Origin: a virus | Virus record (IMG/VR): IMGVR_UViG_3300049259_000054 | Location: 1-54,922 of that record | Strand: one strand, 5' to 3' | DNA: 54,922 bases | Notes under the pieces: generated by a model | The model's database searches: none | The model's input: only the letters and a program-made list of their open reading frames with translations | What the model was told of the DNA's origin: nothing | Program-made: the position numbers and the translations under genes | Shown: piece by piece, positions 11,316 to 54,483 of the stretch | Numbering within the stretch: position 1 is the first letter of the stretch | Layout: every line of letters begins with the position of its first letter

Positions 11316-11914
11316 CAAACATCCCTCCGTTTAGTCCAGGGGCGGCCGGAGGTGTGCCCGCCGTGTCCATGCCAGGTCCAGGTTATCTGCGGGCAGTGGC
11401 TGAACTTGGCGCCGCCGTGTAGCATCGCGACCCAGGTTGCCCAATCCTCGCAGGGGTTTTCTGGGTCCGACCAGGTGAACGACTGAAACCCTCCCACTGC
11501 CCGTAACAACGAGACACGCACAAGGCAGGTTATGGGTATGAAGTTGCCGACGTTGCAGATGTAGTCGCGCAGTTCGTCATCGAATGGCCGCCCGAGTGGC
11601 TTCCAGGGCCACAGGTTCTGGTTGATCCCTTCATACCAGGGGTAGACCAGGTCGGCGTCGGTGTCTTTCTGCCAATCCTCCAGGACTTGCAGGTGTTGCG
11701 GCAACAGCTCGTCGTCGTCATCCAGGAAGGCGACAAAATCAGTATCAACGAGTTTCAACGCCCGGTTGCGGCATTCGGCGGCGCCTAGCCCGTCGTGGTC
11801 GTGCTGCACGATGACGTCGTCCGGTGCCCTCGTCTGGTTCCGGACAGACTCTAAGGCCCGGACCAGCATCTTGGCGCGGGGCGGGATGGTCGGTATTACG
11901 ACGGTGATTGTCAC
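11315..11914 (-). CDS. GT2 family glycosyltransferase
   Basis: 199 residues, GTG 11914 overlapping the upstream stop. The N-terminus (TITVVIPTIPPR) and FVAFLDDDDELLP carry the classic GT-A fold and DXD-type motif; CEDWATWVAML matches the ED-x catalytic region. Inverting transferase acting on an unknown acceptor, third member of a coupled five-gene cluster. Confidence 0.85.
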   Translation of the reverse strand: MTITVVIPTIPPRAKMLVRALESVRNQTRAPDDVIVQHDHDGLGAAECRNRALKLVDTDFVAFLDDDDELLPQHLQVLEDWQKDTDADLVYPWYEGINQNLWPWKPLGRPFDDELRDYICNVGNFIPITCLVRVSLLRAVGGFQSFTWSDPENPCEDWATWVAMLHGGAKFSHCPQITWTWHGHGGHTSGRPWTKRRDV

Positions 11915-12207
11915 GCGGTTTCATCCTTATCTTCGGCGAGGTACCCCATGGCCCGCATGTTGGATATTTCCGCGGCGACCGATCGCCACTGTGGGTGATC
12001 GGTCAACCCGGCAGGGACGGTCCAAATCCGGATCCCCCGCCGGCCCAGTAGGGTGTATTTGGAGGCGATGAACTGCCACCTGATCCGACCCAAACCGGCA
12101 GCCCGTGCAGTATCGGCGGCGATCTGGTAGCTGCCGGCGAAGATGTACACCATTGAGGACCGGCGGTCGTTCGACAGGCTTCCTTTCCGGCCGTTAAGCT
12201 CGTTCAC
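11911..12207 (-). CDS. Hypothetical protein, actinophage small ORFan type
   Basis: 98 residues from GTG 12207 (AAAGGAG upstream); a second start at residue 19 (MVYIFAGS) is possible. The VYIFAGSYQIAADTARAAGL region and a mixed alpha/beta pattern resemble small proteins common in actinobacteriophages, of unknown role. It heads the glycan cluster and is coupled to it by GTGA. Confidence 0.6.
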   Translation of the reverse strand: MNELNGRKGSLSNDRRSSMVYIFAGSYQIAADTARAAGLGRIRWQFIASKYTLLGRRGIRIWTVPAGLTDHPQWRSVAAEISNMRAMGYLAEDKDETA

Positions 12208-12445
12208 TCCACTCTCCTTTGATCAGGTCGGTACAGGTGGGGTCGGTGTATCCGACCGTCCGGTCGATCGCCGTAGTGAGGACCACCGCGGCGCCGCGCC
12301 AGGATTCGGCCTCATTGAACACCTTCCCGCAGATCACGCAGCGGGCCTAGTGTCCCGACAGCCGCCCGGACAGGAAGTACCCGACCAGCAGCTCATCGGG
12401 GCGGTACCGTTTGAAGGTGGGTTCGCGCCCCTCGAGTTTAGGCAC
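12194..12445 (-). pseudogene. Zinc-knuckle gene interrupted by an in-frame TAG
   Basis: A GTG at 12445, overlapping the end of the nuclease gene, opens a 32-codon frame that stops at TAG 12349-12347. The same frame then stays open for 50 codons to TAA 12196-12194 and includes RCVICGKVF and a later Cys. Its end overlaps the next start by 14 nt, as intact neighbours do. This looks like one 83-codon gene with a single amber codon. TAG is a normal stop elsewhere in the phage, so a nonsense mutation is the simplest reading; readthrough or two separate peptides are alternatives. Confidence 0.55.
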
Positions 12446-13349
12446 CGTCGTGTTCCTTCCCGATCCGTTGGTATTTCTCGTCCAACTGCCGAAACCCCGA
12501 CGCCTTCAGGGTCTGCTCGATCGGGACACCCTTCCGGGCGAGCAAATGCGCCTCAGTGAAGTCGCATTTCCAGTGGCATTGATTCGGGTTCGGGGAGGAG
12601 TACGGCTGGGCGTTCTGGGTGGAATAGGCCGCCCGCGCAGCGCGGTAGGCGTCCCACGCCAAGTTCGACAGTTCCAGGTCGGTCCGGGACAGCGGGATCC
12701 GTTTGAACCGTTCCTCGATCGGTTGTTCCTTGGTCTTCAGCTTGTAAGTGCGGGCGCCGGAGTACAGGAACCCGTGGACCGGTTTGCCGAGCTGGCGCAT
12801 CCCCCAGGTGTAGATTCCGAACTGGTCATCCAGGTCCAGGTCTTTCTCCCGATCCAGGTCCTTACCGCTCTTGTGGTCCACCAGCCAGACCCGGTGGGTG
12901 GACCGGACCCGCACAATCAGGTCGATCTTGACCTTGATGGAGAATCGGGAGTCGGCGCCTTCGGCGTTGGGCAGCGGAACGACCCGCTTGTCTTCCACTT
13001 GCAGAATGTCCCAGTCGGGGTCGACCCCCCACCGTTGGATGTACCCCTCGTACATCCATTGGATTAGCGCTTGGTCTTCGCTCTGCCCACCTTGGGTGTG
13101 CAGGTACGGCATAACCTTTTCCTTGGCGAGTTTAAGCCGTGATGCGTGGCCTGGTTCGCCTGCGGTGGCTTTCAGGCTGCGGTAGTGCGCCTCCATCACT
13201 TGGTGCCACAGGATGCCCTTAGCGAGCGCGGTGCCTTCTTTCTCCGGCCGCGCCCAACGCTGTTTATATTCCAGCAGGTGTTTCAATGGGCAGTCGCGGA
13301 AGGCGGCGAGTTCAGAATATGAGACGGTAATCTCAGGCGGCGCGGTCAT
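12438..13349 (-). CDS. RecB/Cas4-like PD-(D/E)XK exonuclease
   Basis: 303 residues. YSELAAFRDCPLKHLLEY at the N-terminus, GILWHQVMEAHY, then KVKIDLIVRV and VWLVDHKSGKD give the PD-(D/E)XK catalytic core (Asp, Asp-x-Lys), followed by QFGIYTWGM. Cys residues near the C-terminus (CHWKCDF) with the N-terminal CP could hold an iron-sulfur cluster as in Cas4/AddB-type nucleases. Probably a 5'-3' exonuclease feeding the Sak4/SSB recombination system. Start ATG 13349 overlaps the upstream stop. Confidence 0.85.
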   Translation of the reverse strand: MTAPPEITVSYSELAAFRDCPLKHLLEYKQRWARPEKEGTALAKGILWHQVMEAHYRSLKATAGEPGHASRLKLAKEKVMPYLHTQGGQSEDQALIQWMYEGYIQRWGVDPDWDILQVEDKRVVPLPNAEGADSRFSIKVKIDLIVRVRSTHRVWLVDHKSGKDLDREKDLDLDDQFGIYTWGMRQLGKPVHGFLYSGARTYKLKTKEQPIEERFKRIPLSRTDLELSNLAWDAYRAARAAYSTQNAQPYSSPNPNQCHWKCDFTEAHLLARKGVPIEQTLKASGFRQLDEKYQRIGKEHDGA

Positions 13350-14584: not shown

Positions 14585-14619
14585 ACTTTATTATAACACT
14601 ACCCTTGCTTAGGCGCAAG
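14582..14619 (-). promoter_or_regulatory. Palindromic promoter downstream of purB
   Basis: TTGCGC 14618-14613, 17-bp spacer, TATAAT 14595-14590, 5 nt to ATG 14584. Palindrome CTTGC-N6-GCAAG at 14604-14619 overlaps the last codons of purB. Confidence 0.8.
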
Positions 14620-15720
14620 TGCATATCGACCGAGGTTGTCCGGCCGGGACCGGGTCGCCCGCTGCGCCCACTCCAGGTTAAGCCGACACTGCCGCTCATC
14701 CACGACCATCCCCCGTGCCAGCCCGGCGGTCTCGCCCAACACGGTCGCCGCGACGTGACACAGGTCCACCAATGCCACCCGCTCGACGCTGCTGTGGCTG
14801 ATGTCGCGTTCATGCCACAGCGCCACATTCTCAAGCAGCGGCGGCAGGTATCCGCGCGCCAACCGGACCAAACCGCAGATCTTCTCCGCGGTTACCGGGT
14901 TGGTTTTGTGTGGCATCGCCGACGAACCAACCTGACCGACCCCGAAAGGCTCCATGATCTCCGCGACTTCCGAACGCGCGGAATGCCGAATCTCTAATGC
15001 AAACGCTTCGCACACGCCTAAGGCGTTTACCAGACAGGCCGCCCAGTGGGCGATCCCGTCGCGCATCACCACTTGGGTGGTGAACGGTAGTGAGGTCAGG
15101 CCGAGGAAATCCAACACATCGGCCTCAATTGCGGGTGATATCCCGTCGTGGTCGTACCTCCCGACCGGGCCGGAAACCTTCCCGACCGCGATACTGGACT
15201 TCGCCTGTCGAAACCTCGTCCCGGTCCGTATCAGCCCGGCCTGTAAATCCGACAGTTTATTGCCGAGCGTGGTAGGCACCGCCCAACGGCCGTGGGTCCG
15301 TCCGATCCGGTCGGTGTGCCCGTATTCGATCGCGCGGGCTCCGATCGCGGAGCCGGCGGCGCCGATCCGTTTCTGCAAGACGTTCGAAACGGTCAATAGT
15401 GCCATCCCCAAGCCGGTGTCGACCAGATCGGAGGAGGTCAAACCGTAATGAGCGTATTCGAACGCCGGATCGTTGTGGTTGGTCTCACGCCAAGCCTGCA
15501 GGAACGCCGCCACATCGTGGCGGGTGGTCTGTTCATGTTCGGCGACCCGGCCTGCCCCGGGCGCTGCCGACCCCCCGATAATCGCCGCGGCGTTTGGAGG
15601 GATCACACCGGCAATAGCTTGGGCTCGAGCTACGGACAGTTCGATCTGGTGCCACCGGTTGATCTTGGCGGTCTCGTCGAACACCGCGGCGATATCAGGA
15701 TCTTCGTACCTGTCGATCAC
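14599..15720 (-). CDS. purB: Adenylosuccinate lyase (PurB), phage-encoded, short C-terminus
   Basis: 373 residues, GTG 15720 behind GGAGGG. Hallmarks of the fumarase/aspartase superfamily are all present: His68 (RHDV), TSSDLVDT at 95-102, RTHG with His143, and the flexible signature loop GSSAMPHKTNP at 265-275 with the catalytic Ser, then WHERDISHSSVER. It removes fumarate from succinylated purine nucleotides. In Z-phages this activity (succinyl-amino-dAMP to dZMP) is usually taken from the host, so a phage copy is notable. The protein ends about 100 residues after the signature; cellular enzymes are 430-470 residues, so most of the C-terminal helical domain is missing. Confidence 0.93.
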   Translation of the reverse strand: MIDRYEDPDIAAVFDETAKINRWHQIELSVARAQAIAGVIPPNAAAIIGGSAAPGAGRVAEHEQTTRHDVAAFLQAWRETNHNDPAFEYAHYGLTSSDLVDTGLGMALLTVSNVLQKRIGAAGSAIGARAIEYGHTDRIGRTHGRWAVPTTLGNKLSDLQAGLIRTGTRFRQAKSSIAVGKVSGPVGRYDHDGISPAIEADVLDFLGLTSLPFTTQVVMRDGIAHWAACLVNALGVCEAFALEIRHSARSEVAEIMEPFGVGQVGSSAMPHKTNPVTAEKICGLVRLARGYLPPLLENVALWHERDISHSSVERVALVDLCHVAATVLGETAGLARGMVVDERQCRLNLEWAQRATRSRPDNLGRYALAPKQG

Positions 15721-39078: not shown

Positions 39079-41829
39079 TTAATCCTGTGGTTCGTTCATC
39101 GGCACGATCAACTGCGTGCATCTGCAATTAATCACTTCCTCGGGCGGTCCCTGCGGATCGCCCGAATACATCAGCTTAGCGTGCTCAGGTCCAAGATCGA
39201 ACGGCTGCCCAAGCGGCACCCGCTGCCCGTTCGCGGCTTTGTGCGATTCGCGGGTCCGGTCGTCCGGGGTAGCCAGCCACTCTTTCTCAAGCTCGGTCGC
39301 GTTCGGCAGCGCGGCACCATAGGCCAGCTGCGCCCCGTTAACCGCACCTTGCACCTCGGTGCGGGCGATGGTTTGGGCGCGAACCCGGTCGGCGTTGTCG
39401 AACACCTTCTGGACTCTCGAGGTCAACGCGGAGATCCCATCACCGGCGTTCACGCCTTCCGTCAACGCCCCAATGATCTCCTTATAGGTCTGGTCGGTTA
39501 CTTGCCCGGCCAGCTGGTTCGCCCGGCCGCGCAGCAACCGGTCGACCGACGCGACTGCGCCGGAGTCGTCGGTATCGGCTGGCAGGTTGATCATCGCGCC
39601 GACATGTCCGGGGATCAACGCTTGGATCGATTGGAAGACGTTCCCTACCCGCCCGGCGGTCTGATCGGTCCAGAATGCGACGTCGAAGATTTTCGCGGCG
39701 TCTACCGGCGGCAGCGGCTGCTCCTCCGGGTGTTCGACCGGTTGGACGGTGTCTCTGACCATTTGTCGGCCGCGGTTGCCCTGTAGCCTCGACACGGTCG
39801 ATTTGGCTTGTTTGGTGAACAGTTCGTGTAGGCTCGCCTCCAGGTGGCCCTCGGTGGCGCGGGCGTGTCGGTCCACCACCCTGGAGTGCCCCAGTCGGCG
39901 GGCGGCGCGGTTCTTGGCGTGCCCGGTCGGGACTGGCAGGTGCCCCGGTCCCGAGTGGCGGACCACCACGACCGGCTCTGGTGCCCTCTCCGCTGTCTTC
40001 TTGTGAATGCTCGAGGTCCGGTGCAGTCCGCACACCTCGCAAGTCTGCGGTTTACCGCCCTTGGCGACGAAACGGTGCGGCGGGGCCTTCGAGGTCTTAC
40101 TGGCCGGACCGACCGGCAGTAGCAGCCCGGCGCCTTGCAAACCGTGTTCGGTGATCACTGCGACGTCCCGGCCGCCGTGGCTGGATGCGGCTTTCGCCTT
40201 GAATTCCGCAATCGCGGCGACGGCTTTCGCCTGAGTCTTCGGGCTGGGCTTGCCGCCGTTGCCGGAGGGCCGACCTTCCGCCCAGTTGTAACAGTCCCCG
40301 ATTGCCCGTTGGATTGCTTCGCTTTCCGGCAGCGACTCGGGCGGGCGCATGAAAGCATGCGCCAGCGCCCGGATGAACAACGGCAGACCACCGGCCTTCG
40401 TCACCCAATTCTTACCCGTCCCCAACGGTGAAGTGTCGTAGCGGTACTCGAGCATGTCCAGCAACCGGAACACCAACTCGTCCGAACGACCGCCCAACCC
40501 GGCGCCCTTATTGGTGGATCCGCCGGCAGACCCGGGGGTGTCGTCCTGATCCGGCACCGGCGCCGCAGTAATCACAGCACCGGCCGCGCGCGGATCCAGG
40601 CCGTACTCCTCCCGGGCCTCGTCGCCGTCTACAATCCCCGCGGCAACCAGCGCACTCGCCGGTTCCGGCTGGAACCGCATCGGCGGTTTCAACGCCGCCA
40701 CCTGCGACAGGTCGAACCACATCACCTCGTCGCCCAACCGCGGCGACAAGTCCGTATTGACCGCGTCCTGAAACTCCGCGATCCACTCCAGGACCGTCCC
40801 GGTCCAATAGTTGCGGTGTTCCTGGTCGGCGTTCTCGTAGGTCCGTTCGGTTGCGTTCCCCAACAGCGACCTCGGCACCCCCCAACCGTCCAGCACTTCG
40901 TCGCGGGCGGCAGCCTTCAACTCCAACAACTGGGCGTCCTTCGCCGACGCCCCGATCTTTTCCACCTGGATCGTCCGCTGCCCATCCTTGGCGCCATCAA
41001 CCTCCGAGAATAAGGTTGAACCGGCGTTCTTCGCGCCGGTGAACGACGACATGAACTGGTCCTGGAACGCCTGCCGCAAATTGTCGTTGCCGAACGGCGG
41101 GGTCACGATCAGGGTGGTCAACGCCATGTTGTTGCGCATGAACGACCGCATGTAGATGTCCATCGCCTCGGACACGTCCAAACTCAACCGCATCCACTGC
41201 AGTGGGGTTTCGGGTTTGCGCCAATCTTCGAGGCTGGGGCGCCACCCGTAGTGGACCTGATCGACCCGCAACAGCCGCTTCTGCTTCGGGGTCTGGTAGA
41301 CAAACCCGGACCACGGCTTAACCGCGGGCGGTTCGGATTCGATCGGGTTCAGGTACATCGACGGGAGCGGGAACAACCCACCGACCGATTTCGGGTTGTC
41401 CTTGTACGGGACGGTCTCCCAAGAATACCTGCCGGTGAACAGGTAATGCAGCAGTGACCAACGGATCAACGCCCGCGGGGTGATCCCCGGGGCGGGCGAC
41501 CCAGGTGGTGGGCCGAGTAGCCTCGCCAGCGGCGCGTTGGCGTCCCACCGGTCCGGTTTATTCGGGTCCAACCCGGCGCGGATCGGCAGACCGGCGATGG
41601 TCTGGGCGATCTTGATGGCGCAGCGGGCGGAGTACAGGTGCCCGTAATACCCGACCTGCAACGCGACGTTGCCGTTGATGGTGTTGGTCTGCGGCATCCC
41701 GGGGGTGGAGTAGACCGTCGCGACATTCGCTGCTGTAGGTGGACGGATCGCCTTACCAACGTCGGTGACAGGGCGGCGGACGACCGCGGTGGCTCTGGTT
41801 CCGGACGCCAACCGCGTAATAAACGACAC
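39079..41829 (-). CDS. Portal protein fused to MuF-type head morphogenesis domain
   Basis: 916 residues, GTG 41829. The N-terminal ~500 residues are a portal (SPP1 gp6-like: LQWMRLSLDVSEAMDIYMRS, GVPRSLLGNATERTYENADQ). A middle linker has a Cys/His cluster (CEVCGLHRTS). The last ~220 residues are a MuF domain, with RAQTIARTEVQGAVN, EWLATPDDRTRESHKAANGQ and EVINCRC. These are usually two genes; here one polypeptide links the DNA pore to a minor capsid protein that may be ejected with DNA. Confidence 0.88.
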   Translation of the reverse strand: MSFITRLASGTRATAVVRRPVTDVGKAIRPPTAANVATVYSTPGMPQTNTINGNVALQVGYYGHLYSARCAIKIAQTIAGLPIRAGLDPNKPDRWDANAPLARLLGPPPGSPAPGITPRALIRWSLLHYLFTGRYSWETVPYKDNPKSVGGLFPLPSMYLNPIESEPPAVKPWSGFVYQTPKQKRLLRVDQVHYGWRPSLEDWRKPETPLQWMRLSLDVSEAMDIYMRSFMRNNMALTTLIVTPPFGNDNLRQAFQDQFMSSFTGAKNAGSTLFSEVDGAKDGQRTIQVEKIGASAKDAQLLELKAAARDEVLDGWGVPRSLLGNATERTYENADQEHRNYWTGTVLEWIAEFQDAVNTDLSPRLGDEVMWFDLSQVAALKPPMRFQPEPASALVAAGIVDGDEAREEYGLDPRAAGAVITAAPVPDQDDTPGSAGGSTNKGAGLGGRSDELVFRLLDMLEYRYDTSPLGTGKNWVTKAGGLPLFIRALAHAFMRPPESLPESEAIQRAIGDCYNWAEGRPSGNGGKPSPKTQAKAVAAIAEFKAKAASSHGGRDVAVITEHGLQGAGLLLPVGPASKTSKAPPHRFVAKGGKPQTCEVCGLHRTSSIHKKTAERAPEPVVVVRHSGPGHLPVPTGHAKNRAARRLGHSRVVDRHARATEGHLEASLHELFTKQAKSTVSRLQGNRGRQMVRDTVQPVEHPEEQPLPPVDAAKIFDVAFWTDQTAGRVGNVFQSIQALIPGHVGAMINLPADTDDSGAVASVDRLLRGRANQLAGQVTDQTYKEIIGALTEGVNAGDGISALTSRVQKVFDNADRVRAQTIARTEVQGAVNGAQLAYGAALPNATELEKEWLATPDDRTRESHKAANGQRVPLGQPFDLGPEHAKLMYSGDPQGPPEEVINCRCTQLIVPMNEPQD

Positions 41830-43996: not shown

Positions 43997-44003
43997 GTAT
44001 GGC

Positions 44004-44039
44004 GCGGCCCCGACGCGTCAGGGGTGTCGTCGGGGCCGC
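44004..44039 (-). terminator. Hairpin terminator ending the purZ operon
   Basis: Perfect 12-bp stem (44004-44015 with 44028-44039), 15 nt after the stop at 44055 and just before the late promoter. It separates early and late arms. Confidence 0.8.
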
Positions 44040-44054
44040 TGGACAGTTGGCTTC

Positions 44055-45023
44055 TTAACTGCCGGATGAACCGAACCCGTTGCTGCCGCGGGCGTGGCTG
44101 GTCAACTCTTTCGCCCACACCGGGGTTAGGCCGCGGGTGCTGTTTTCCAGGATGATCAACTGGGCGAGCCGTTCGCCGACTCCAACCTTCACCGGTTCGT
44201 CGGTCATGTTCTGTACTCCTGCGTATAGCTCGCCGCGGTAGCCGCAGTCTATGATACCAGGGTTGACCAGGAGCCCGCGCTTCCGGAGGGTGGAAGACCG
44301 CCCGACCAAGAATCCCCAGGTGTGGGCTGGCAGTTGGACGGCGATCCCGCAGTGGATGTCGACGAAGCTGCGTGGCGGCACTGCCGCAGCTTCAGACACG
44401 TACAGGTCCAGGCCGGCGTCGTCCGGGTGTACCCGGGTGGGGCATTGGACGGTGCCGGATACCATCTGCATCGGCAGCTCGGCTGCAGAGTATTTTTGCT
44501 CGGAGGGCGCCCATGCGGTCCGGTCGCTTTCGGTCTGTGCGATCTTCCCGTATTTGGTGGCGGCCCACCTGGCGGTGTTGGCGATAAGCTCCTCAGCGGC
44601 GGAGTCGGCCGACAATCCGTGGCCGGTCAGGAAGGCCATCGCTGAATAGGCGCCGGTGTGGGACGGCGTGAAGTAACGGATTCGGTCGTCGGATTGCGGC
44701 ATCGCGTAATTCCGGTCGATGTCGATATCGGTCAGGACGGCGCATTTTTGATTGTATTGCAGGGTCCGGTTGATCTCCACCGGTACGCCGTAGGTCGGGA
44801 CGCCCGCCGGCAGGTAGGCGATCAACCCTTCGCATGCCTCTTGGGCGGATAGGTTGATGTCGGCGATGGCGGGTTCCGGACCTTCGGCGTAGATGTTGAA
44901 CGCATGGCCGGGTTCGTACAAGTTTACCTTGTAGGCTGCGGCGGCGGTCCGGATGTGTACCCGAGCATCGATCGACCCTTCCGCCCGGCCTGCGCGGTCG
45001 ATGGGGTGGGCGAAGTAGATCAC
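44055..45023 (-). CDS. Deoxyribosyltransferase-like domain fused to dUTPase
   Basis: 322 residues. Residues 1-120 look like a nucleoside 2-deoxyribosyltransferase/DNPH1-type fold: MIYFAHPIDRAG start, CEGLIAYLPAGVPTYGVPVEI with the likely catalytic Glu. Residues about 185-322 are a complete trimeric dUTPase: HPDDAGLDLYVSE (motif 1), GRSS (2), GIIDCGYRGELY (3), GERLAQLII (4) and RGSNGFGSSG (5). It would remove dUTP and make dUMP; the N-terminal domain may act on deoxynucleotide glycosidic bonds. Last gene of the purZ operon, overlapping the one before. The fusion is rare and its join to Z synthesis is an inference. Confidence 0.85.
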   Translation of the reverse strand: MIYFAHPIDRAGRAEGSIDARVHIRTAAAAYKVNLYEPGHAFNIYAEGPEPAIADINLSAQEACEGLIAYLPAGVPTYGVPVEINRTLQYNQKCAVLTDIDIDRNYAMPQSDDRIRYFTPSHTGAYSAMAFLTGHGLSADSAAEELIANTARWAATKYGKIAQTESDRTAWAPSEQKYSAAELPMQMVSGTVQCPTRVHPDDAGLDLYVSEAAAVPPRSFVDIHCGIAVQLPAHTWGFLVGRSSTLRKRGLLVNPGIIDCGYRGELYAGVQNMTDEPVKVGVGERLAQLIILENSTRGLTPVWAKELTSHARGSNGFGSSGS

Positions 45024-45331
45024 AACCGGACCTCCTCATTGCTTGTAGGCAAGCTTGCTGGTACGCAATCTACCAGGGCGCACAACAGCCCACAAGTACC
45101 CCCGCCGGTCTCCTGCAGGAACGCCGCCAAGCTGTCCCTGGTCGGGTGGTCCCGGTGTAGCTCCTTCGCCGATCCACGGCCCTCCCGCTTATACCGAGTT
45201 TCGAGGCGGTCGAACTCTTCGGCGACGTGCGCTTGGGAGTAGCAGTGTTGCCGGATGGTGGTCCGCTCCTCCGGCTTCACGCTGGCCAGCCGGCGCGCCC
45301 GAGCCCGCACCGCGGGTTTCGAGGCGGCCAT
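45020..45331 (-). CDS. Hypothetical protein in the purZ operon
   Basis: 103 residues from ATG 45331, sharing a base with the previous stop (TAATG); its own stop overlaps the dUTPase start. Basic N-terminus (RARARRLASVKPEERTT), a QHCYSQAHVAEEFDRLETRYK helix, and CGLLCALVDCV near the end. No family recognised. Strict coupling on both sides suggests a role linked to nucleotide metabolism. Confidence 0.6.
   Translation of the reverse strand: MAASKPAVRARARRLASVKPEERTTIRQHCYSQAHVAEEFDRLETRYKREGRGSAKELHRDHPTRDSLAAFLQETGGGTCGLLCALVDCVPASLPTSNEEVRL
45038..45069. promoter_or_regulatory. Two abutting 16-bp palindromes without a promoter
   Basis: ATTGC-N6-GCAAG (45038-45053) directly joins CTTGC-N6-GCAAT (45054-45069), giving a symmetric 32-bp site at the 3' end of the 103-residue gene, just before the dUTPase start. 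No -10 box is found at 16-19 bp on either strand, so it may act as a roadblock operator. Confidence 0.7.
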
Positions 45332-45735
45332 TAGACCCACCGACCCGTGTCACGGATCCGCGTCATCATCACCGAATAGACCTCCAGGTCAAATTCGGAA
45401 TCCGGATGTGGTAGTACGCCCTGCTCTAACGCCCCGAAGATCCGCGCCACCTTACCTAAGGCGTAGAACGCAGTGGCGGCATAGCGGCCGTACTGTGCCT
45501 TCTCTTCGTCGGTCGCGCCATCCAACCGGTCCCCCATCATCCCGACCATCGCTTGACCCATCAAGTCCAAATCCGACGCGCCATATTGGATCGCCTTGGG
45601 GGTGGTACGGGAGATAGTGACAGCGGCATGCCTTCCCCACCAGTCCGCGATCTCTCCGACCCTCTCCTCGAACTCGTCGGTCTTAGCCTGTTCCATCCGG
45701 ACGGTCTCCTCTTCGATCTTATGGACGTTGCTCAT
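45331..45735 (-). CDS. Hypothetical helical protein directly after purZ
   Basis: 134 residues, ATG 45735 overlapping the purZ stop (ATGA). All-helical: an acidic first helix (EEETVRMEQAKTDEF), RTTPKAIQYGASDLDLMGQAM, then YAATAFYALGKVARIFGALEQG and EFDLEVYSVMMTRIR. Proteins of this kind are widespread in actinophages without known function. The all-alpha fold with spaced acidic residues could be a divergent MazG-like pyrophosphohydrolase, which would supply dGMP to PurZ, but the canonical ExxE...ExxD motif is not evident. Confidence 0.65.
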   Translation of the reverse strand: MSNVHKIEEETVRMEQAKTDEFEERVGEIADWWGRHAAVTISRTTPKAIQYGASDLDLMGQAMVGMMGDRLDGATDEEKAQYGRYAATAFYALGKVARIFGALEQGVLPHPDSEFDLEVYSVMMTRIRDTGRWV

Positions 45736-46907
45736 CGGCTCATCACTTCCAGGACGGTGCCCGGGCCGGTGCCGATAATTGAGGGGCGAACCCCGCAGTC
45801 GTACTCGACCTGATCCAGCAACGCCCTCAGCTCCTTATGATCGCCCCGGTCGACGTTAATATCACTGAGCCGACCGGTCCACCCACCGACGTCCGGGAGC
45901 TGTTGATCCACCATCGACAACCACACCCGGACCGGTCCTTGATCCGGGCCGCCGTTAGCATCGATCGCGGCGCTGGCAAGCTCCGAGTCCCAACCGCCGA
46001 CCCGGCGGGTCTTGTTAGTGACGGTGGTTTTCTCTGCCGGTAAGCCGAGCTCCTCCCAGCTGGTTTCGTCCTTCAACGGGCCGGAGTTGCCGGCAACCCG
46101 GATCGGATAGACCCGCAAGACCACCCAGACTTCCAACCAGCCGGGGGTGACGGTCCAGGGGTTGATTCCTGCCATGGCCAGGAAGTCGATCGCCCGGCAG
46201 TCCGAGGAGGTCACTTGCGGGTAGTGTTGGGTGTGCAACCCGAGCCCGTAACCTTGGGTGCCTTCCAGGATGACGTGTGCGTTGCGGTGGGTCAGGTCGT
46301 TGTTCAGTATCGCGGCGGTATCGTCGCAGAATGCGACACCGCGGTCGGCCAGCGCCTGTATCGGGTCGGTGTTCGACACCGGCGGATACCCGAACGCGTC
46401 GTTGGCGGATTCCGCAGCTCGGCGGGCCTGCCAACCGTTCATCGCGTCCCGCACGGTGAAGGCGGTGCGCATCGCCCGTGCGGCACGTGCGGCGCCGACC
46501 CCCTTACTGGTGGATCCGATCCGCTCGGTCAACTTCACCTCCTGTTCGGTGTCTTTCTCCGCTGAGGTGATCAGGGTCGCTGCAGTGTCCACGATCAGCC
46601 GTTGCCCGACGTCCAGGCCGGCGTCGTCCAACGCGACCACTTCGTTCGCCAGGACTTGCAGGTCGATCTCCGACCCTGCGCCGATGGTCAGGCTAGCGTC
46701 GGGGCGCCCGACAGCGATCACAGGCACCTGCCGAAGCGCCCACTTGCGACCTTCGCTGTCATAGGCGGTGTGCCCGGCGTTGGGGCCGGCGACCCTGACT
46801 CCGACGATCCTCTGGTGTTTGCTGGTGCGGGCGAGGTAGGCGGCGCAGGCGCCTTTCGCTTCCGAGCCGTACTGGCCGCCGACGACCACCGTAAGCTTGC
46901 TCATCAT
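45732..46907 (-). CDS. purZ: PurZ-type succinyl-2-aminodeoxyadenylate synthase
   Basis: 391 residues. Belongs to the adenylosuccinate synthetase family. The loop GDEGKG of PurA, with its catalytic Asp, reads GSEAKG at 14-19: Ser15 replaces Asp, the substitution that marks phage PurZ. PNAGHT at 42-47 keeps the catalytic His46, followed by the PurZ-like SEGRKW. Later GAGS, GTQGYGLGLHTQHYPQVTS, and RVYPIRVAGNSG also match PurZ. It would join dGMP and aspartate with ATP or GTP to make succinyl-amino-dAMP, the first step to dZTP. First gene of a tight four-gene operon with its own palindromic promoter and a structured leader. Confidence 0.9.
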   Translation of the reverse strand: MMSKLTVVVGGQYGSEAKGACAAYLARTSKHQRIVGVRVAGPNAGHTAYDSEGRKWALRQVPVIAVGRPDASLTIGAGSEIDLQVLANEVVALDDAGLDVGQRLIVDTAATLITSAEKDTEQEVKLTERIGSTSKGVGAARAARAMRTAFTVRDAMNGWQARRAAESANDAFGYPPVSNTDPIQALADRGVAFCDDTAAILNNDLTHRNAHVILEGTQGYGLGLHTQHYPQVTSSDCRAIDFLAMAGINPWTVTPGWLEVWVVLRVYPIRVAGNSGPLKDETSWEELGLPAEKTTVTNKTRRVGGWDSELASAAIDANGGPDQGPVRVWLSMVDQQLPDVGGWTGRLSDINVDRGDHKELRALLDQVEYDCGVRPSIIGTGPGTVLEVMSR

Positions 46908-46937
46908 TGATTCTCCCGTTCGCGGGCCGGATAAGGG

Positions 46938-46985
46938 CCGGCACCCGCGTCGCGCGTCGGGGGGAGCACGCTCTGCGGGTGCCGG
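46938..46985 (-). promoter_or_regulatory. Stem-loop in the purZ leader
   Basis: An 11-bp perfect stem (46938-46948 with 46975-46985) with a 26-nt GC-rich loop lies in the ~98-nt region between the -10 and ATG 46907. It could attenuate, protect or regulate purZ mRNA. No known purine riboswitch core was recognised. Confidence 0.5.
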
Positions 46986-47012
46986 CGGATCTGGTGCCTT
47001 GCTGCAAGACCT

Positions 47013-47043
47013 ATCTTACCATGCGACCTTGGCAGCACGCAAG
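47013..47043 (-). promoter_or_regulatory. Palindromic promoter of purZ
   Basis: TTGCGT 47042-47037, 18-bp spacer, TAAGAT 47018-47013. Palindrome CTTGG-N6-GCAAG at 47028-47043 (one mismatch in an arm). Confidence 0.72.
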
Positions 47044-47044
47044 G

Positions 47045-47230
47045 TCAGGCGGGGGTGCCCTGCGACTCCTCCGCGAGGGCTTGGGCGTCTACCCCGACCG
47101 AGATCGAGATCGAACCGTCGGAGTTGCTGACCGGAGTGATCTCGATCGGTACCTTAATAGTCCCGATCGGGTAATAGGTGTCCTGTACTTGCACGTACAA
47201 CTGCAGGTCGACCGGCGCTAGTGAAGCCAT
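47045..47230 (-). CDS. Hypothetical small beta-rich protein
   Basis: 61 residues, ATG 47230 with GGGAG upstream. Beta-rich (VDLQLYVQVQDTYYPIGT...). Lies between a terminator hairpin and the purZ promoter, so may have an unseen promoter or depend on read-through. Unknown family. Confidence 0.55.
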   Translation of the reverse strand: MASLAPVDLQLYVQVQDTYYPIGTIKVPIEITPVSNSDGSISISVGVDAQALAEESQGTPA

Positions 47231-47265
47231 CGTAACTCCCGTGAGTTGGACTCGTTTGACAGGGC

Positions 47266-47316
47266 GGCGCCCCGGTGATCCTCTGACACCGTACCACGGG
47301 TGTCCACCGGGGCGCC
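47266..47316 (-). terminator. Hairpin terminator
   Basis: 12-bp perfect stem (47266-47277 with 47305-47316), 35 nt after the stop at 47351. Confidence 0.7.
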
Positions 47317-47350
47317 CATACCGCGCGGGGGTCGCGCAGTGTTCATGTTA

Positions 47351-47641
47351 CTACTCTTCGTGCCGCTTGGCCAGATGGAACCTCGGCAGGGCTTGGTGCC
47401 ACAACGCCCCGGCCGGTACTCCGGAGGCGGTCTTCTCCACCGCGGCTTGGGCTTCGATCACGGCCCGCCCCACCCGGGCGAACATCACCCGGGCGTATTC
47501 GGTCGCCGGCCGGTCGGCACCGTACCGGTACCGTTCGGAATCTTCGACCATGGCTTCGAACCGGCGCCAACGTATCGCGTCGGCCCGCAACGATTCCAGG
47601 TCCACAACCTTGGCGGAGCGGCGAACCCGACCGGTTCGCAT
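47351..47641 (-). CDS. Hypothetical protein
   Basis: 96 residues, ATG 47641 overlapping the previous stop (TGATG). Helical and Arg-rich (DAIRWRRFEAMVEDSERYRYG). No family recognised. Lies downstream of the winged-helix gene. Confidence 0.55.
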   Translation of the reverse strand: MRTGRVRRSAKVVDLESLRADAIRWRRFEAMVEDSERYRYGADRPATEYARVMFARVGRAVIEAQAAVEKTASGVPAGALWHQALPRFHLAKRHEE

Positions 47642-47889
47642 CAGACCAATCCGACCCAGCGCAGCAACTCATAAGCGCCGACCGCGCAGGCTAGCAGCAG
47701 GAGCGCCAGTACGGCGATCATGGCGACCATCGCGGAGGCCCGCCCGATCGCCTCCTCCCGCGCCTTCCGACGGGCACGGACCCGCTCGAGCCGAGCCTGC
47801 TCGGGGGTTTTAGTGAACCGGCCGAACGCAGCGGCGAGACTGTCCGGGCGGGGCGGGGTCTCGTCCTTAAGGTGTTTCGAATCGGTCAT
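47641..47889 (-). CDS. Small membrane protein
   Basis: 82 residues, ATG 47889 with GGAG upstream. A basic amphipathic helix (ARLERVRARRKAREEA) precedes one C-terminal membrane span (VAMIAVLALLLLACAVGAY). Possibly a tail-anchored protein. Unknown family. Confidence 0.6.
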   Translation of the reverse strand: MTDSKHLKDETPPRPDSLAAAFGRFTKTPEQARLERVRARRKAREEAIGRASAMVAMIAVLALLLLACAVGAYELLRWVGLV

Positions 47890-47906
47890 GGTATCTCCAA
47901 GGAAAG

Positions 47907-47935
47907 GGTCGGCCGCCTCCCCGGGGCGGCCGACC
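47907..47935 (-). terminator. Hairpin terminator after winged-helix gene
   Basis: 11-bp stem (47907-47917 with 47925-47935), 7-nt loop, 6 nt after the stop at 47941. Confidence 0.75.
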
Positions 47936-47940
47936 GGTCA

Positions 47941-48384
47941 TTAATCGGCCAACACGTCCTGGACCATTTGCAGGTCCTGGACCAGGCGGTCGTGGGATTG
48001 CATCGCGATGGCGACCCGCGCCTGTACGGCCCGGTCGGCGCCCCTCGCGTTCTGCTCCATCGCCTCCAGGGTGCCAGCCCGGACCCGGTGTAGTTGCACT
48101 TGAGCGATCCGGGCGCGCAGTTTCACGTACACCACCGCGGTGTCGTTGTCGGTGGTCAAACCCACCCCGCCGGACCGGCCCAGCGCCGAGACGAACGAGA
48201 TGTGGTTGATCGAGGCGAGCTCTTCGCGCAACTTGGTCAATCCCTTGTGGACGTTCCCGCGGGTGAGCCCGGTCTTGTTGCCGACGTCTTCGATCTTGGT
48301 GAGGTTGCCGTCGCCGGCTCTCATCAGGACGTCCAATACGAGGGCGGCGGCTTGGTCGCTGCCGATCCGCTGGTGTGAGGGCAT
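47941..48384 (-). CDS. Winged-helix DNA-binding protein
   Basis: 147 residues. Residues about 12-58 (AALVLDVLMRAG, then IEDVGNKTGLTRGNVHKGL) fit a winged helix-turn-helix of the MarR/phage-regulator kind; the C-terminal half is a long helix suited to dimerisation. It has its own palindromic promoter. A second candidate regulator of the palindrome regulon or of late genes. Confidence 0.7.
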   Translation of the reverse strand: MPSHQRIGSDQAAALVLDVLMRAGDGNLTKIEDVGNKTGLTRGNVHKGLTKLREELASINHISFVSALGRSGGVGLTTDNDTAVVYVKLRARIAQVQLHRVRAGTLEAMEQNARGADRAVQARVAIAMQSHDRLVQDLQMVQDVLAD

Positions 48385-48459
48385 CTCTTAGCCCTTCCTG
48401 TTGGGCGAGCTGTTCCCGCCGCTGCTTGCATTCTAGCACATTCCTTGCTTTCGCGCAAA
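48385..48459 (-). promoter_or_regulatory. Palindromic promoter of the winged-helix gene
   Basis: TTGCGC 48458-48453, 17-bp spacer, TAGAAT 48435-48430; palindrome CTTGC-N6-GCAAA at 48444-48459; 45-nt leader with AGGAAGG. Confidence 0.75.
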
Positions 48460-49206
48460 TCAGCCGAGCAGGCGGGTCAGCTCCTCATCCAAGGTGCGAG
48501 GTTCGGTGTTGTTCGCCACCGAATCCAGATAACCCAACTTGGACTCGATCGAACTGATCTCCGACGCCAGCTCGTGCCGCTGCTGGTAGGTCGGCGACAT
48601 CGTCGAGATGCGGGACACCGTCTCACTCAGGGCGACATTGGCCTTCGCCAACTCGTGGGCTATCGCCGCCCAGTCCGACGCGTGTTTAGACGCCGCGTGT
48701 CCGGGGTCAGCACGGCGGGTCTCGTCCAACCGGGCGGTCCGTTCGTTGCTGACCCGGGTGTGTGCCTGCAACGCCACCGCGGCGGTGTCATCGTCCGCCA
48801 TCACTTCCCGGGCGACCTCAGGGTCCTTAAGCGCCTGCTTGACTTGGGTCGCTCGGTCTTGGGCGGAGGATCGCGGTCCGGTGCGTCCTTGGGTAGAATG
48901 TCCGAGCGCCCGGTGTGCCTGAGTGAGAGTCATCCCCGGTCGGATCAGATCCCGGTCGTAGGCCAACACCTCGTGGACCTTCCAGGAGACGCCTTTAACC
49001 CGGCGTTCTGTCGCCCAGGACCGGGCGACGGTGGCGTAGTGCTCCAGCCTCGCCAACTCCACCCCGATCTCACTGGCGTAGGCGGGCAGGTTTTGATTGC
49101 CGATCTCGCGGGCGGCGTCGCCCAAGAACCAGTTGCGCTGACCATCCTTCAAGATACCCATCTGGACCAGCGCAGCCCAACGGGCGGTGCCTGGATGTAC
49201 TGGCAT
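48460..49206 (-). CDS. Putative DNA-binding protein, possibly ParB/KorB-like
   Basis: 248 residues, ATG 49206 with AAGGAG upstream. The N-terminal 75 residues may contain a helix-turn-helix (WFLGDAAREIGNQNLPAYAS, then LEHYATVARSW and a VSWKVHEVLA helix). The rest is helical with a central acidic DDDTAAVALQ and a C-terminal coiled coil. It lies beside another DNA-binding gene. A partition or plasmid-maintenance role would fit a phage-plasmid life, but the evidence is weak. Confidence 0.55.
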   Translation of the reverse strand: MPVHPGTARWAALVQMGILKDGQRNWFLGDAAREIGNQNLPAYASEIGVELARLEHYATVARSWATERRVKGVSWKVHEVLAYDRDLIRPGMTLTQAHRALGHSTQGRTGPRSSAQDRATQVKQALKDPEVAREVMADDDTAAVALQAHTRVSNERTARLDETRRADPGHAASKHASDWAAIAHELAKANVALSETVSRISTMSPTYQQRHELASEISSIESKLGYLDSVANNTEPRTLDEELTRLLG

Positions 49207-49266
49207 GGTTGCTCCTTCGTCGCGGATTGTACTTCATTGTAACAGTGCAATTTGCACACAAGCAAG
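49207..49266 (-). promoter_or_regulatory. Palindromic promoter of the 248-residue gene
   Basis: TTGCTT 49265-49260, 18-bp spacer, TACAAT 49241-49236; palindrome TTTGC-N6-GCAAG at 49251-49266; its end touches the upstream terminator stem. Confidence 0.75.
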
Positions 49267-49293
49267 TGCCCCGACCAGCGGAGCCGGGGCACT
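49265..49293 (-). terminator. Hairpin terminator of the micro-ORF transcript
   Basis: 9-bp stem (49265-49273 with 49285-49293), abutting the next palindromic promoter. It closes a transcript of about 160 nt. Confidence 0.65.
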
Positions 49294-49306
49294 CGGGCCT
49301 CCTGGA

Positions 49307-49354
49307 TTAGCTCCAGGTTGCGCCATCCTTCTTGATCCAAGTCATACCCTTCAT
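49307..49354 (-). CDS. 15-residue micro-ORF or small RNA
   Basis: Within a transcription unit with its own palindromic promoter and terminator (49464-49265) the only sensible frame is ATG 49354 to TAA 49307, coding for MKGMTWIKKDGATWS, with a G-rich stretch before the ATG. It could be a micropeptide or the unit could be a small RNA. Nothing else lies in this 234-bp gap. Confidence 0.4.
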   Translation of the reverse strand: MKGMTWIKKDGATWS

Positions 49355-49434
49355 GCTGTCACCCCCGATCCCGTGGAGTGCGGCCACCACCGGAGGTCCC
49401 TAACCCCAACTCCCGGCGATGGCCGCTAACTCCG

Positions 49435-49464
49435 AGTTTATCACGCTTCTTGCGTTGACGCAAG
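49435..49464 (-). promoter_or_regulatory. Palindromic promoter of the micro-ORF unit
   Basis: TTGCGT 49463-49458, 17-bp spacer, TAAACT 49440-49435; palindrome CTTGC-N6-GCAAG at 49449-49464, inside the end of the 81-residue gene. Confidence 0.75.
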
Positions 49465-49686
49465 TGGTTCGTCTTCCAGGTCCAGATAGATCCAGACGTT
49501 CAACCACTCCGTGTCGTCCCCGGTCATCACAATCTTCACCGCGTCCTGTTCCGTCACCGGCCTCCCGGCCGCTTCCGTCAACAGCTGAATCACCCGGGCT
49601 GGCTGGACCCACCCAGACACGTCCAAGTCCGCCTCGTTCAAATCGGAGGTGCTCACGGTGCCATAGTAGGCGCCCGCCCGCCTCAT
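49441..49686 (-). CDS. Hypothetical protein
   Basis: 81 residues, ATG 49686 overlapping the previous stop (ATGA). Acidic, with VQPARVIQLLTEAAGRPV and IVMTGDDTEWLNVWIYLDL. No family recognised. Third gene of the polymerase operon. Confidence 0.55.
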   Translation of the reverse strand: MRRAGAYYGTVSTSDLNEADLDVSGWVQPARVIQLLTEAAGRPVTEQDAVKIVMTGDDTEWLNVWIYLDLEDEPLASTQEA

Positions 49687-49940
49687 TCCACCAACTCGTA
49701 AGTCACCCCGAACACTGCCGGGTCGCACGGATAGAACCGATCCTGTTTCGGCTCTCGGATTATCCAGTGGCCGACCGGGACCGGGATGAGCACGCCGTCG
49801 ATCGTGCAGACGCGGAGCCCGTCGAGCTCGGTCGGCCCGTAGATACCGGCAGCGCCGCCCCACCCCCAAACCTCATCGATATTGTCGCCGGTCCATCGCA
49901 CCGCGTCGACCACCACGGGCTTCTTGCGGTATTTGCTCAT
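49683..49940 (-). CDS. Phage protein with KYRKKPVVVDA...FYPCDP pattern
   Basis: 85 residues from ATG 49940, overlapping the polymerase stop (ATGA). Begins SKYRKKPVVVDAVRWTGDN and ends HWIIREPKQDRFYPCDPAVFG, the pattern of a small protein found in very many phages of diverse hosts, function unknown. Recognised as a family, not as an activity. Confidence 0.75.
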   Translation of the reverse strand: MSKYRKKPVVVDAVRWTGDNIDEVWGWGGAAGIYGPTELDGLRVCTIDGVLIPVPVGHWIIREPKQDRFYPCDPAVFGVTYELVE

Positions 49941-52147
49941 TCGCTGTACCCCCAACGCTTCGCATCCAACTCCATGATCGTACCCAGCGCGTCGGTCGCC
50001 AACGCCGCCGCCTCAGCGATCAACAGCTCCACCATCTCCTGTCCGCCATCGCGCGGCAGCAACATCAGCTGTGAGTCGTGTACGGCAAGGAGTAACCCAG
50101 CGCCGCCGATCTTAGCTTCCTTAGACAGGTCCGCCCGCTCCTGCACCCCCCACTCGCCCAGCCGCCGCTCCACCAACAGGTCGATATCCTTCCCTACCTC
50201 GGCAAGGGACCCCTGCACCCGCCTGGAGAATCCCGACCGGTAGTCGTCATACACCTGGAAGTACGACGATTTGCCGTTCGCCAGCCGGACTTTCCGTTGC
50301 CGTTTCACCAACTGCTCGGTGGAATCCAGCGCCGCGGAGAACTCCGGGTATAGCTCGTTCCAACCTCGGACCGACTTCTCCATCTCATACAACGGCACCC
50401 GGATACCGGAATCCGATAGGACCATCTTCTGGACCGTCTCCGCCCCGGCGCCGAACACACAGCTGAAGTTCTCCCGTTTACCGAGCTGTCGGTACAGCTT
50501 CCAATCCGGATGATCCGGATACACCTGGTGCACTTGGGTGGCGGTGTACCCATGCAGGTCCTCCTTCCGCTTCACCATATCTAACATCCGCTTACAGCCG
50601 GCATAATGCGCCGCCAGCCGCAGCTCCGCCTGTGCCAGATCCATCTCCCAAAGGTCCCACCCGGGGCAGAACTGCTGCACCGCCCAAGCGATCAAATTCC
50701 GGGGGGTGGCGAACCCTTGCAACGGGGAGGTACCCTTCCCGATCATCTTGAAATCCGACGGGATCGCCTGCAGATTGACCCGTTCGACCGAGAACCTGCC
50801 GGATTTAACCTGCAACTGCCGGAAATGGGTCCGCAGCCGTTTGTCTTGCGGATTGGTCTTGACGGCGTACCCTTCGTACCACAAGCTGATCGCGGTGGAC
50901 AGGCGGGCGTAGTCGGCCCAAGCTTGGGCGTGCGGCGCACCGTCGTCCACCATCCGGGCGAGAATGTCGGCGGTCAGACTGGGCGCTTGGGTTTTCTCGC
51001 TGACCGCGTAGGGGGTCAACCCGAGGCATTCCACCCCGCGGGCGGTCTGACCGGTGTCGAAGTAGTATTGTTTCGCGCCGGCCTCGGTGGGGGTGAACGG
51101 GAGGGCGGTGGCGATCGCGGCGCGTTTCTGCTTCAACGCCCGGGCGATTTCGAAGGACCTCTCGGCCGGGTAGGGTAGGCCGCGGGTCTCCATCGCGTAC
51201 AGCACCTGCATAACGTCGAACTCCCGGCGAATCCATTCCAGGGTTTTCTTGCGGTGTTGATCACCGAGTCGGTAGATCTTGCGCAGTTGCGCCTGTTCCA
51301 GCCGTTTAGTCTGGTGCGCGTCGGAGGTGGCGTAGGGGTCAATGATCGACCACGGGACCAGGTCGTACCTACCGGGCGGTAGCTTATGCCGGCGCAGGTA
51401 GTTCTTAACCTCAGCCTCGTTGCTGCGTTCCTCCTCCCCCCAAAGCCTGGCGGCGGTCGGTTTCAGGGAGGTGTTCTCCCGGGGGTGCAGCTCCCGGTTG
51501 GTCAACTGGGTGTCCCAGGCGAACTTCGGCAGCAGGTTGACGCCGAGTCCGAATTCGCGATGCCCAGCCCGCATAATCAGGGCGTCGAACAGGGCGTTGT
51601 GGTAGGTGATCCGTCGGGCCGATAACCAGGCGATCAGGTCGGTCCAGGCTGCAGCGTCGAGGTTGTTGGCGTCGCCGAACAGGGTGGTCTGGCCGTCGTC
51701 TTCAGGTTTCCCGGTGACACCTTGGTCGAACGGGTAGGCAACAGCGTGTAGACATCCCGGGTTGTCGCAGTCATAGAACGGCACGTCGAGGTAAACCGCG
51801 TGGGGAGTGGCGACCCGGCGGATGTGTTCGCCAGTCGTGGCGACCACGATATCATCCAGCAGCGCGGTGCAGCCGTCAGCGCCGTGTTGCTGCCAGGCTA
51901 GCGACACTACGGCGACTCGGGCGCCGTCGTCGGTGTGCAGCCCGGACGTTTCGGTGTCCAGTGCTACGGTGCCGTCGATTCGGGCGGGTAGGAAGGCTGG
52001 GTGTTGATCGTAAGGGCGGTCCATCGCCGGGGTATTACCGTGGGCGCGGTAGTGGCAAGGGTCGCCGTCTTGACATGGGCAGGTGGGATCACTGCCGGAG
52101 CAGGGATTGGTTTGCTCGATACTCGATCGGGCACTGATTCTTGGCAT
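49937..52147 (-). CDS. Family A DNA polymerase with 3'-5' exonuclease (DpoZ candidate)
   Basis: 736 residues from ATG 52147, which lies 5 nt after a TAGGAT box (leaderless); an ATG 15 nt upstream is inside the promoter. Exonuclease motifs are intact: LDTETSGL (63-70), HNALFDALI (about 184-192), YATSD (about 272-276). Polymerase motif A MDLAQAELRLAAHY (502-515), motif B RQLGKRENFSCVFGAG (553-568), motif C VHDSQ (689-693), where Ser stands in place of the usual Glu of HDE. A Cys-rich N-terminal extension (CSGSDPTCPCQDGDPCHY) may bind zinc. Z-phages usually carry such a polymerase near purZ; whether this one prefers dZTP is not visible. Confidence 0.9.
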   Translation of the reverse strand: MPRISARSSIEQTNPCSGSDPTCPCQDGDPCHYRAHGNTPAMDRPYDQHPAFLPARIDGTVALDTETSGLHTDDGARVAVVSLAWQQHGADGCTALLDDIVVATTGEHIRRVATPHAVYLDVPFYDCDNPGCLHAVAYPFDQGVTGKPEDDGQTTLFGDANNLDAAAWTDLIAWLSARRITYHNALFDALIMRAGHREFGLGVNLLPKFAWDTQLTNRELHPRENTSLKPTAARLWGEEERSNEAEVKNYLRRHKLPPGRYDLVPWSIIDPYATSDAHQTKRLEQAQLRKIYRLGDQHRKKTLEWIRREFDVMQVLYAMETRGLPYPAERSFEIARALKQKRAAIATALPFTPTEAGAKQYYFDTGQTARGVECLGLTPYAVSEKTQAPSLTADILARMVDDGAPHAQAWADYARLSTAISLWYEGYAVKTNPQDKRLRTHFRQLQVKSGRFSVERVNLQAIPSDFKMIGKGTSPLQGFATPRNLIAWAVQQFCPGWDLWEMDLAQAELRLAAHYAGCKRMLDMVKRKEDLHGYTATQVHQVYPDHPDWKLYRQLGKRENFSCVFGAGAETVQKMVLSDSGIRVPLYEMEKSVRGWNELYPEFSAALDSTEQLVKRQRKVRLANGKSSYFQVYDDYRSGFSRRVQGSLAEVGKDIDLLVERRLGEWGVQERADLSKEAKIGGAGLLLAVHDSQLMLLPRDGGQEMVELLIAEAAALATDALGTIMELDAKRWGYSE

Positions 52148-52183
52148 AGCACATCCTAGCACGTCTGCTTGCGCACATGCAAG
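52145..52183 (-). promoter_or_regulatory. Palindromic promoter of the DNA polymerase
   Basis: TTGCAT 52182-52177, 18-bp spacer, TAGGAT 52158-52153, 5 nt to ATG 52147; palindrome CTTGC-N6-GCAAG at 52168-52183. Confidence 0.8.
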
Positions 52184-53620: not shown

Positions 53621-53656
53621 GGTTTAAGTATATCACAGGGCTTGCTTTTACGCAAG
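53618..53656 (-). promoter_or_regulatory. Palindromic promoter of the 53620-52682 operon
   Basis: TTGCGT 53655-53650, 17-bp spacer, TATACT 53632-53627, 6 nt to ATG 53620; palindrome CTTGC-N6-GCAAG at 53641-53656, overlapping the end of the YdjM-like gene. Confidence 0.82.
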
Positions 53657-54226
53657 GGCTGCGATGGTACGGATAGAATCGAAATACGGCCACACAACCG
53701 ACACCGCGACCAAACCCAACACCAACACCGGGTACACCGCCAAATACTCCACATCAGACCCCACCTGCAGCCGGAACCAACTGGGCGTAATCCAGATCCG
53801 GCACCCCCGCTCGTCCCGACCCGGGAACCAGAACACCGGCACCCCCGATTTCGTCGGCAGATCCCCCAGCAGGTGCGTAACCATCCCACCTAACACCACC
53901 GGACCGATCCACCACACCCAACCGGCCGCGAAAACGCCCACCTCAAGTAGCCCGCATACCGGCAGGATGAAAATCGCCATGTGCGAGATCCCCCGATGCT
54001 CCGGCAGACCCAACGCATGGGAGAAACGGCGGACCAACCAGGACAACACCCAACCCACCGGACCTAAACTGCGGGTGAATAAGCTCCGCGGCGTATCAAT
54101 ATCGGGGGAGTCGGCAGTCCAAGTCCACAACGCCGCCAACAACACCGCATCGCCACCATGCAGACCCGCCAGATGCGCAGCCGTCACCCCGACCAACGCA
54201 CCCGATATTAGGTGTCCAGGTCCCAT
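53648..54226 (-). CDS. YdjM-type membrane-bound metal-dependent hydrolase
   Basis: 192 residues from ATG 54226 (TGATG overlap). GHLISGALVGVTAAHL near the start, DSPDIDTPRS, HRGISHM, and HLLGDLPTKSGVPVFWF are the His/Asp motifs of the YdjM/LexA-regulated membrane hydrolase family. Four to five membrane spans. The family's reaction is not well known. It is not an HD-domain dATPase. Confidence 0.8.
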   Translation of the reverse strand: MGPGHLISGALVGVTAAHLAGLHGGDAVLLAALWTWTADSPDIDTPRSLFTRSLGPVGWVLSWLVRRFSHALGLPEHRGISHMAIFILPVCGLLEVGVFAAGWVWWIGPVVLGGMVTHLLGDLPTKSGVPVFWFPGRDERGCRIWITPSWFRLQVGSDVEYLAVYPVLVLGLVAVSVVWPYFDSIRTIAALA

Positions 54227-54483
54227 CACCGGCGCAATACCCAATCCAGCATATTCGGATGATCCCGCATCCAGGTGGTGTCCACCCACCTGCCCGCATT
54301 CGATGGCGTCGGGACAGAAGCCGGCATCCACACCTCTACCAGGGCGCCAGACCACCGTCCGAGAGCCAACACACAATTCGGATGGTCTGGGTGTCCTGGC
54401 GGCGGTGTGTGCGCGGTGATCTCCTCATCGATCACCAAGGGCGGATCATGCGACAGACAAATCAGCCTGTAAGTGCTACTCAC
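54226..54483 (-). CDS. Hypothetical protein
   Basis: 85 residues, GTG 54483 overlapping the end of the FtsK-like gene. Beta-rich start (STYRLICLSHDPPLVIDEE), Trp-rich C-terminus. Unknown; links the translocase and the YdjM-like gene in one coupled chain. Confidence 0.6.
   Translation of the reverse strand: MSSTYRLICLSHDPPLVIDEEITAHTPPPGHPDHPNCVLALGRWSGALVEVWMPASVPTPSNAGRWVDTTWMRDHPNMLDWVLRR

Follow-up and report, generated by a model that had tools for sequence, protein, structure and literature searches.

We report that positions 45732-46907 of the window, the whole analysed stretch of a virus contig of 54,922 bases (IMG/VR record IMGVR_UViG_3300049259_000054), encode on sequence evidence a PurZ0, and not a PurZ of the phiVC8 type. 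The window is highly likely to derive from a tailed phage of the PurZ0-type Z-DNA phages, equipped with a predicted route from deoxyguanosine triphosphate (dGTP) to Z-DNA, and in the phage DNA adenine is very probably replaced by 2-aminoadenine (Z), a whole-base substitution of which nature offers few examples and which may block restriction. We infer every enzyme activity, as well as the Z content, from homology, clade placement, catalytic residues, gene order and co-occurrence. The synthetase adds one more member to PurZ0; the departures from the published scheme appear to be a phage-borne adenylosuccinate lyase (PurB) and a small gene locked to purZ0, here termed orf134, as judged from the open-access papers searched.

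The synthetase and its family

45732-46907, minus strand: purZ0, dGMP-aspartate ligase (2-amino-adenylosuccinate synthetase; dGMP, deoxyguanosine monophosphate), 391 amino acids, ATG start, Ser15; assigned by homology

The open reading frame (ORF) lies on the minus strand, a plus-strand reading of the same interval being rejected as it contains stops, and its codon-position guanine-plus-cytosine contents of 0.66/0.49/0.81 are gene-like. The adenylosuccinate-synthetase family protein reported in a preliminary description of this DNA, with Ser15 (GSEAKG) and PNAGHT, is real: the motif GGQYGSEAKG places Ser15 at the catalytic Asp position, GPNAGHT holds N43-T47, and the later blocks that had been called PurZ-like, SSDCRAIDFLAMAG, YPIRVAGNSGP and TTVTNKTRRVG, are conserved in the alignment. 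The protein matches PHROG 1211 '2-aminooxy adenylosuccinate synthetase' (3.9e-90), Pfam Adenylsucc_synt (2.4e-38) and, as its top PDB match, 7vf6 'PurA-like adenylosuccinate synthetase' (1.7e-78). A match by chance is excluded. Its nearest cultured relatives are encoded by the Arthrobacter Korraviruses, with ∼48% identity over the whole protein, and no nucleotide similarity was found between window positions 44000-50000 and phage records.

In a tree of 76 synthetases the window protein falls within a 30-row PurZ0 clade (support 100/100) together with Wayne, Ghobes, Galactica, Olihed and Goodman. It lies outside phiVC8-type PurZ, a separate clade with support of 100/100, and outside PurA, likewise a separate clade (100/100), whose catalytic Asp it also lacks. 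This phylogeny against PurA, PurZ0 and PurZ, which the preliminary description had suggested as a check, therefore places the protein in the PurZ0 clade and not inside PurA; the claim of a PurZ homologue stands as to family, by tree and by gene set, and is corrected as to type. Residues that hold dGMP, taken from the S-2L PurZ structure (PMC8342488), are largely preserved, G22, S23, N49, A50, G130, S131, T132, R146, Q190, T205, R240, V241, T273-T276 and R280 of the S-2L pocket being identical in the window. The sole differences among the residues compared are at Y203 and C204, which are replaced by Gln and Val, respectively; Gln at the first position also occurs in Wayne, Galactica, Keanu, Olihed and Ghobes, and Val at the second in Olihed and Goodman.

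The Asp-to-Ser change, previously taken as the mark of PurZ, does not serve as such, as Ser occupies the catalytic Asp position in 79 of the 80 best matches from bacterial and archaeal genomes, those genomes that were checked also containing an Asp-type PurA. Because cellular Ser-type paralogues sit beside a normal PurA, the change alone is no proof of a phage PurZ, and phylogeny and gene context are needed for the PurZ0 call. In the tree, cellular Ser-type genes fall outside the PurZ0 clade with the exception of L194, a contig that binning had assigned to an uncultured Verrucomicrobia metagenome-assembled genome (MAG) and in which a PurZ0-clade gene is accompanied by the orf134 domain; this contig probably comes from a phage. 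The remaining cellular loci (L195-L273) have a neighbourhood of their own, comprising an upstream RNase H-like/kinase fusion (RNase_H_2 + AAA_18; 65/79), a downstream dCTP-deaminase-like gene (71/79) and, in 17/79, a deoxynucleoside kinase (dNK). PADLOC returned only partial domain matches for these neighbourhoods, which may possibly represent a nucleotide-modification or defence operon.

Genes surrounding purZ0

49937-52162, minus strand: family-A DNA polymerase, Wayne-like DpoZ (DpoZ-1), with exonuclease residues D69/E71/D193, helix-O Phe570 and motif C H695-D696
45331-45735, minus strand: orf134, conserved PurZ0-linked protein of 134 amino acids, candidate (d)NTP pyrophosphohydrolase, ATGA overlap with purZ0
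45020-45340, minus strand: orf106, hypothetical, overlapping both neighbours
44055-45023, minus strand: predicted DmtZ-DutZ fusion, 322 amino acids, N-terminal nucleoside deoxyribosyltransferase (NDT)-like dAMP hydrolase/transferase and C-terminal dUTPase-fold dATP/dGTP diphosphatase

The gene order PolA - PurZ0 - ORF - ORF - DmtZ-DutZ is that of Makoto and Wayne, with orf134, orf106 and the 322-residue fusion following purZ0 with short overlaps. No relatives of orf106 were found among the loci examined. The C-terminal part of DmtZ-DutZ matches dUTPase (PHROG, Pfam), and dutZ has been found in 98/98 PurZ0 genomes examined (PMC12884076). In the N-terminal part, the Tyr, Asp, Pro, Asn and Glu shown or modelled as important for DmtZ (PMC12884076) are all present as Y3, D9, P38, N57 and E83, and are kept in 33/33 of the other loci compared.

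The polymerase falls within a PurZ0-phage clade of 33 rows (100/99) and, inside it, within a Wayne/Ghobes group of 10 (100/99). It carries the helix-O Tyr-to-Phe change (Phe570), the only characteristic change common to both DpoZ clades (PMC8599892). Among the PurZ0-phage polymerases of the loci examined, 21 have Phe and 21 have Tyr at this site (Tyr in, for example, L005, L011, L019, L024 and L032); thus PurZ0 is not always paired with a Phe-type DpoZ.

orf134 and the phage-borne PurB

Searches of Pfam and PHROG with orf134 gave nothing significant, yet a 100-residue domain of the protein occurs in the gene after purZ0 in 73/73 non-Korravirus PurZ0 contigs, whereas in the seven Korravirus contigs it is absent and a DUF5664 domain, which hydrolyses dATP and dGTP (PMC12884076), stands in its place. 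Over 88 loci the two domains number 79 and 9, respectively, never together and one always present, a statistic that overstates the evidence because it may reflect a single replacement event. Scanning 50,697 phage records recovered the domain in 31, with counts for Microbacterium, Gordonia and Streptomyces equal to those from the PurZ search; a Curtobacterium record has a synthetase and a dUTPase adjoining the domain. A reverse scan of viral contigs, with a seven-sequence subset of the alignment as query, located purZ beside 77 of 80 copies; the three remaining copies begin no more than ∼410 bases from an end of the locus.

The family has invariant residues at K47, Y51, K95, R98, D112, D116 and Y120, and the window protein differs from it at E85 (Tyr) and E50 (Gln). 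An AlphaFold2 model of orf134 is all-helical, with a predicted local distance difference test (pLDDT) score of 95. hhalign gave no match to DUF5664, MazZ, MazG or Nmad1, and Foldseek found nothing in the PDB at E <= 0.001; VIA-align rows with MazG, DCTPP1 and iMazG had Z scores of 4.7-5.1 (MazG 5.1, DCTPP1 5.0), amid unrelated helical proteins, and were not taken as a match. From its position and from the replacement by DUF5664, we propose that orf134 is a (d)NTP pyrophosphohydrolase supplying dGMP. No published mention of the orf134 family in PurZ0 phages was found in open-access papers, and an unnamed conserved gene tied to purZ0 offers a specific candidate for the step that supplies dGMP.

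The second addition lies in the replication module:

14599-15720, minus strand: PurB-like adenylosuccinate lyase, 373 amino acids, shortened C-terminal domain, predicted to convert dSMP (the 2-amino-adenylosuccinate deoxynucleotide) to dZMP (the Z deoxynucleotide) and fumarate
5039-7369, minus strand: PrimPol/D5 primase-helicase, replication module
7985-9145, minus strand: RecA/Sak4-like recombinase
12438-13349, minus strand: Cas4/RecB-like PD-(D/E)XK exonuclease

The best PDB matches of this protein are adenylosuccinate lyases. It has the Lyase_1 fold and the signature GSSAMPHKTNP (GSSxMPxKxNP), and H68 and H143 are presumably the catalytic histidines of the family. A frameshift was rejected as the cause of its shortness, the DNA beyond the stop containing no obvious continuation but only the next gene. 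purB lies with the PrimPol, RecA-like and RecB-like genes, as in Ghobes, and GenBank records annotate related lyases in PurZ0 phages of Hiyaavirus and Ghobesvirus. A PurB match is present in 24/42 PurZ contigs, or 23/42 without one short low-scoring stretch.

When PurBs were placed in a tree, copies from PurZ0 phages and six other viral contigs were found on one side, with cellular PurBs and the remaining viral ones on the other. The six contigs, fetched by PurB alone, all carry a Ser-type PurZ (PurZ0), compared with 2/25 viral PurB contigs outside the group (Fisher 3.8e-5, uncorrected for shared descent). In published accounts conversion of dSMP to dZMP is done by the host, or no phage enzyme was found for the step (PMC8342488, PMC12783734). 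No published mention of PurB in PurZ0 phages was found in open-access papers, while in GenBank records PurB-like lyases are named. The sequenced Ghobes and Galactica also possess both genes, PurB being named as such and the orf134 homologue listed as 'hypothetical protein'. Whereas the published scheme has the phage pass dSMP to the host PurB, the PurB-carrying group of PurZ0 phages, including the window, would fill in this step and could make the pathway independent of the host. Phage PurB and orf134 would also be useful for rebuilding Z-DNA in a laboratory strain.

Proposed route to Z-DNA, alternatives and related phages

In the proposed route, DutZ, possibly together with orf134, would convert dGTP to dGMP and dATP to dAMP. 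PurZ0 would join dGMP and aspartate to form dSMP, from which the phage PurB would release fumarate to give dZMP, and host kinases would raise dZMP to dZTP. The DpoZ-1 polymerase would then place Z opposite T. DmtZ would destroy dAMP and salvage the Z base, so that adenine would be kept out. Tentatively, and with rather less conviction than for the route as a whole, the orf134 family, found only beside purZ0, may supply dGMP and remove dATP and, with phage PurB, allow dGTP to reach dZMP without host purine enzymes.

Several observations weigh against this scheme. The last domain of the window PurB is short, and 18/42 PurZ contigs have no PurB, several of them being fragments. The branch that sets the PurZ0-phage group of PurBs off from the others has weak support (69/31, with midpoint rooting), and the tree does not settle the exact position of the window protein within the group. 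A role for phage PurB as a dedicated dSMP lyase is something that we infer from co-occurrence only. In addition, the DmtZ lid residue, Trp124 in Ghobes, corresponds to Tyr106 in the window, at a position that is highly variable among DmtZ proteins.

The alternative that survives best, although unlikely, is that the gene is a PurZ0 relative in a phage whose DNA contains Z only in part, or whose Z trait has degenerated. Z content is unreadable from sequence, and the ordinary Tyr persists in some polymerases of PurZ0 phages; therefore, not every PurZ0 phage need exclude adenine equally. In the window, however, all genes are open, catalytic residues are kept and the polymerase has the Wayne/Ghobes-type Phe. 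An ordinary phage-borne PurA feeding AMP synthesis from IMP shares the superfamily (Pfam) but is very improbable given Ser15 at the catalytic Asp position, the separate PurA clade (100/100) and neighbours that are PurZ0-type nucleotide genes. Equally improbable is membership of the cellular Ser-type family found beside dCTP-deaminase-like and RNase H-like genes, with which the window protein has the Ser and ∼32-40% identity in common, as the tree places those genes, L194 excepted, outside the PurZ0 clade and the gene neighbourhoods differ.

Wayne and its relatives (Korravirus) resemble the window in a PurZ0 ∼52% identical in the alignment, with the Ser motif, in polymerases of the same DpoZ group and in the order PolA - PurZ0 - ORF - ORF - DmtZ-DutZ. 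They differ in that no full PurB was found in Korravirus records and that in Wayne a DUF5664 dATP/dGTP pyrophosphohydrolase domain follows purZ0 where the window has orf134. Gordonia phage Ghobes has PurZ0, a PurB next to RecA/RecB-like genes, a polymerase of the DpoZ group, the orf134 domain after purZ0, and both DmtZ and DutZ; however, the latter are separate genes rather than fused, and its PurB is far diverged from that of the window (33% identity). The Hiyaavirus Streptomyces phages Galactica, Keanu and Hiyaa share PurZ0, a PurB-like lyase, the DmtZ-DutZ fusion and the orf134 domain, but have 80-kb genomes and a polymerase with Tyr at the DpoZ position. The PurZ-DatZ-MazZ cluster of S-2L, phiVC8 and SH-Ab 15497 would be expected to perform the same reaction, and the dGMP pocket is conserved, whereas its PurZ belongs to the other clade. 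The window has no match to PF01966 (HD domain), PF03819 (MazG), PF04447 (DUF550) or PF18909 (DUF5664), and thus no DatZ, MazZ, DUF550 or DUF5664 was detected in a record that may be incomplete.

Terminase and capsid matches are mixed, with no single host indicated. Within the replication module, a block of nucleotide-sugar epimerase, methyltransferase and glycosyltransferase genes occupies 9186-12207 (minus strand), and another glycosyltransferase is encoded at 3699-4847 (minus strand); these genes might act in glycosylation of the surface or of the DNA. A YdjM-like membrane protein (Pfam) is encoded at 53648-54376 (minus strand), and a 916-residue portal-MuF fusion, an annotation also present in Wayne, at 39079-41829 (minus strand).
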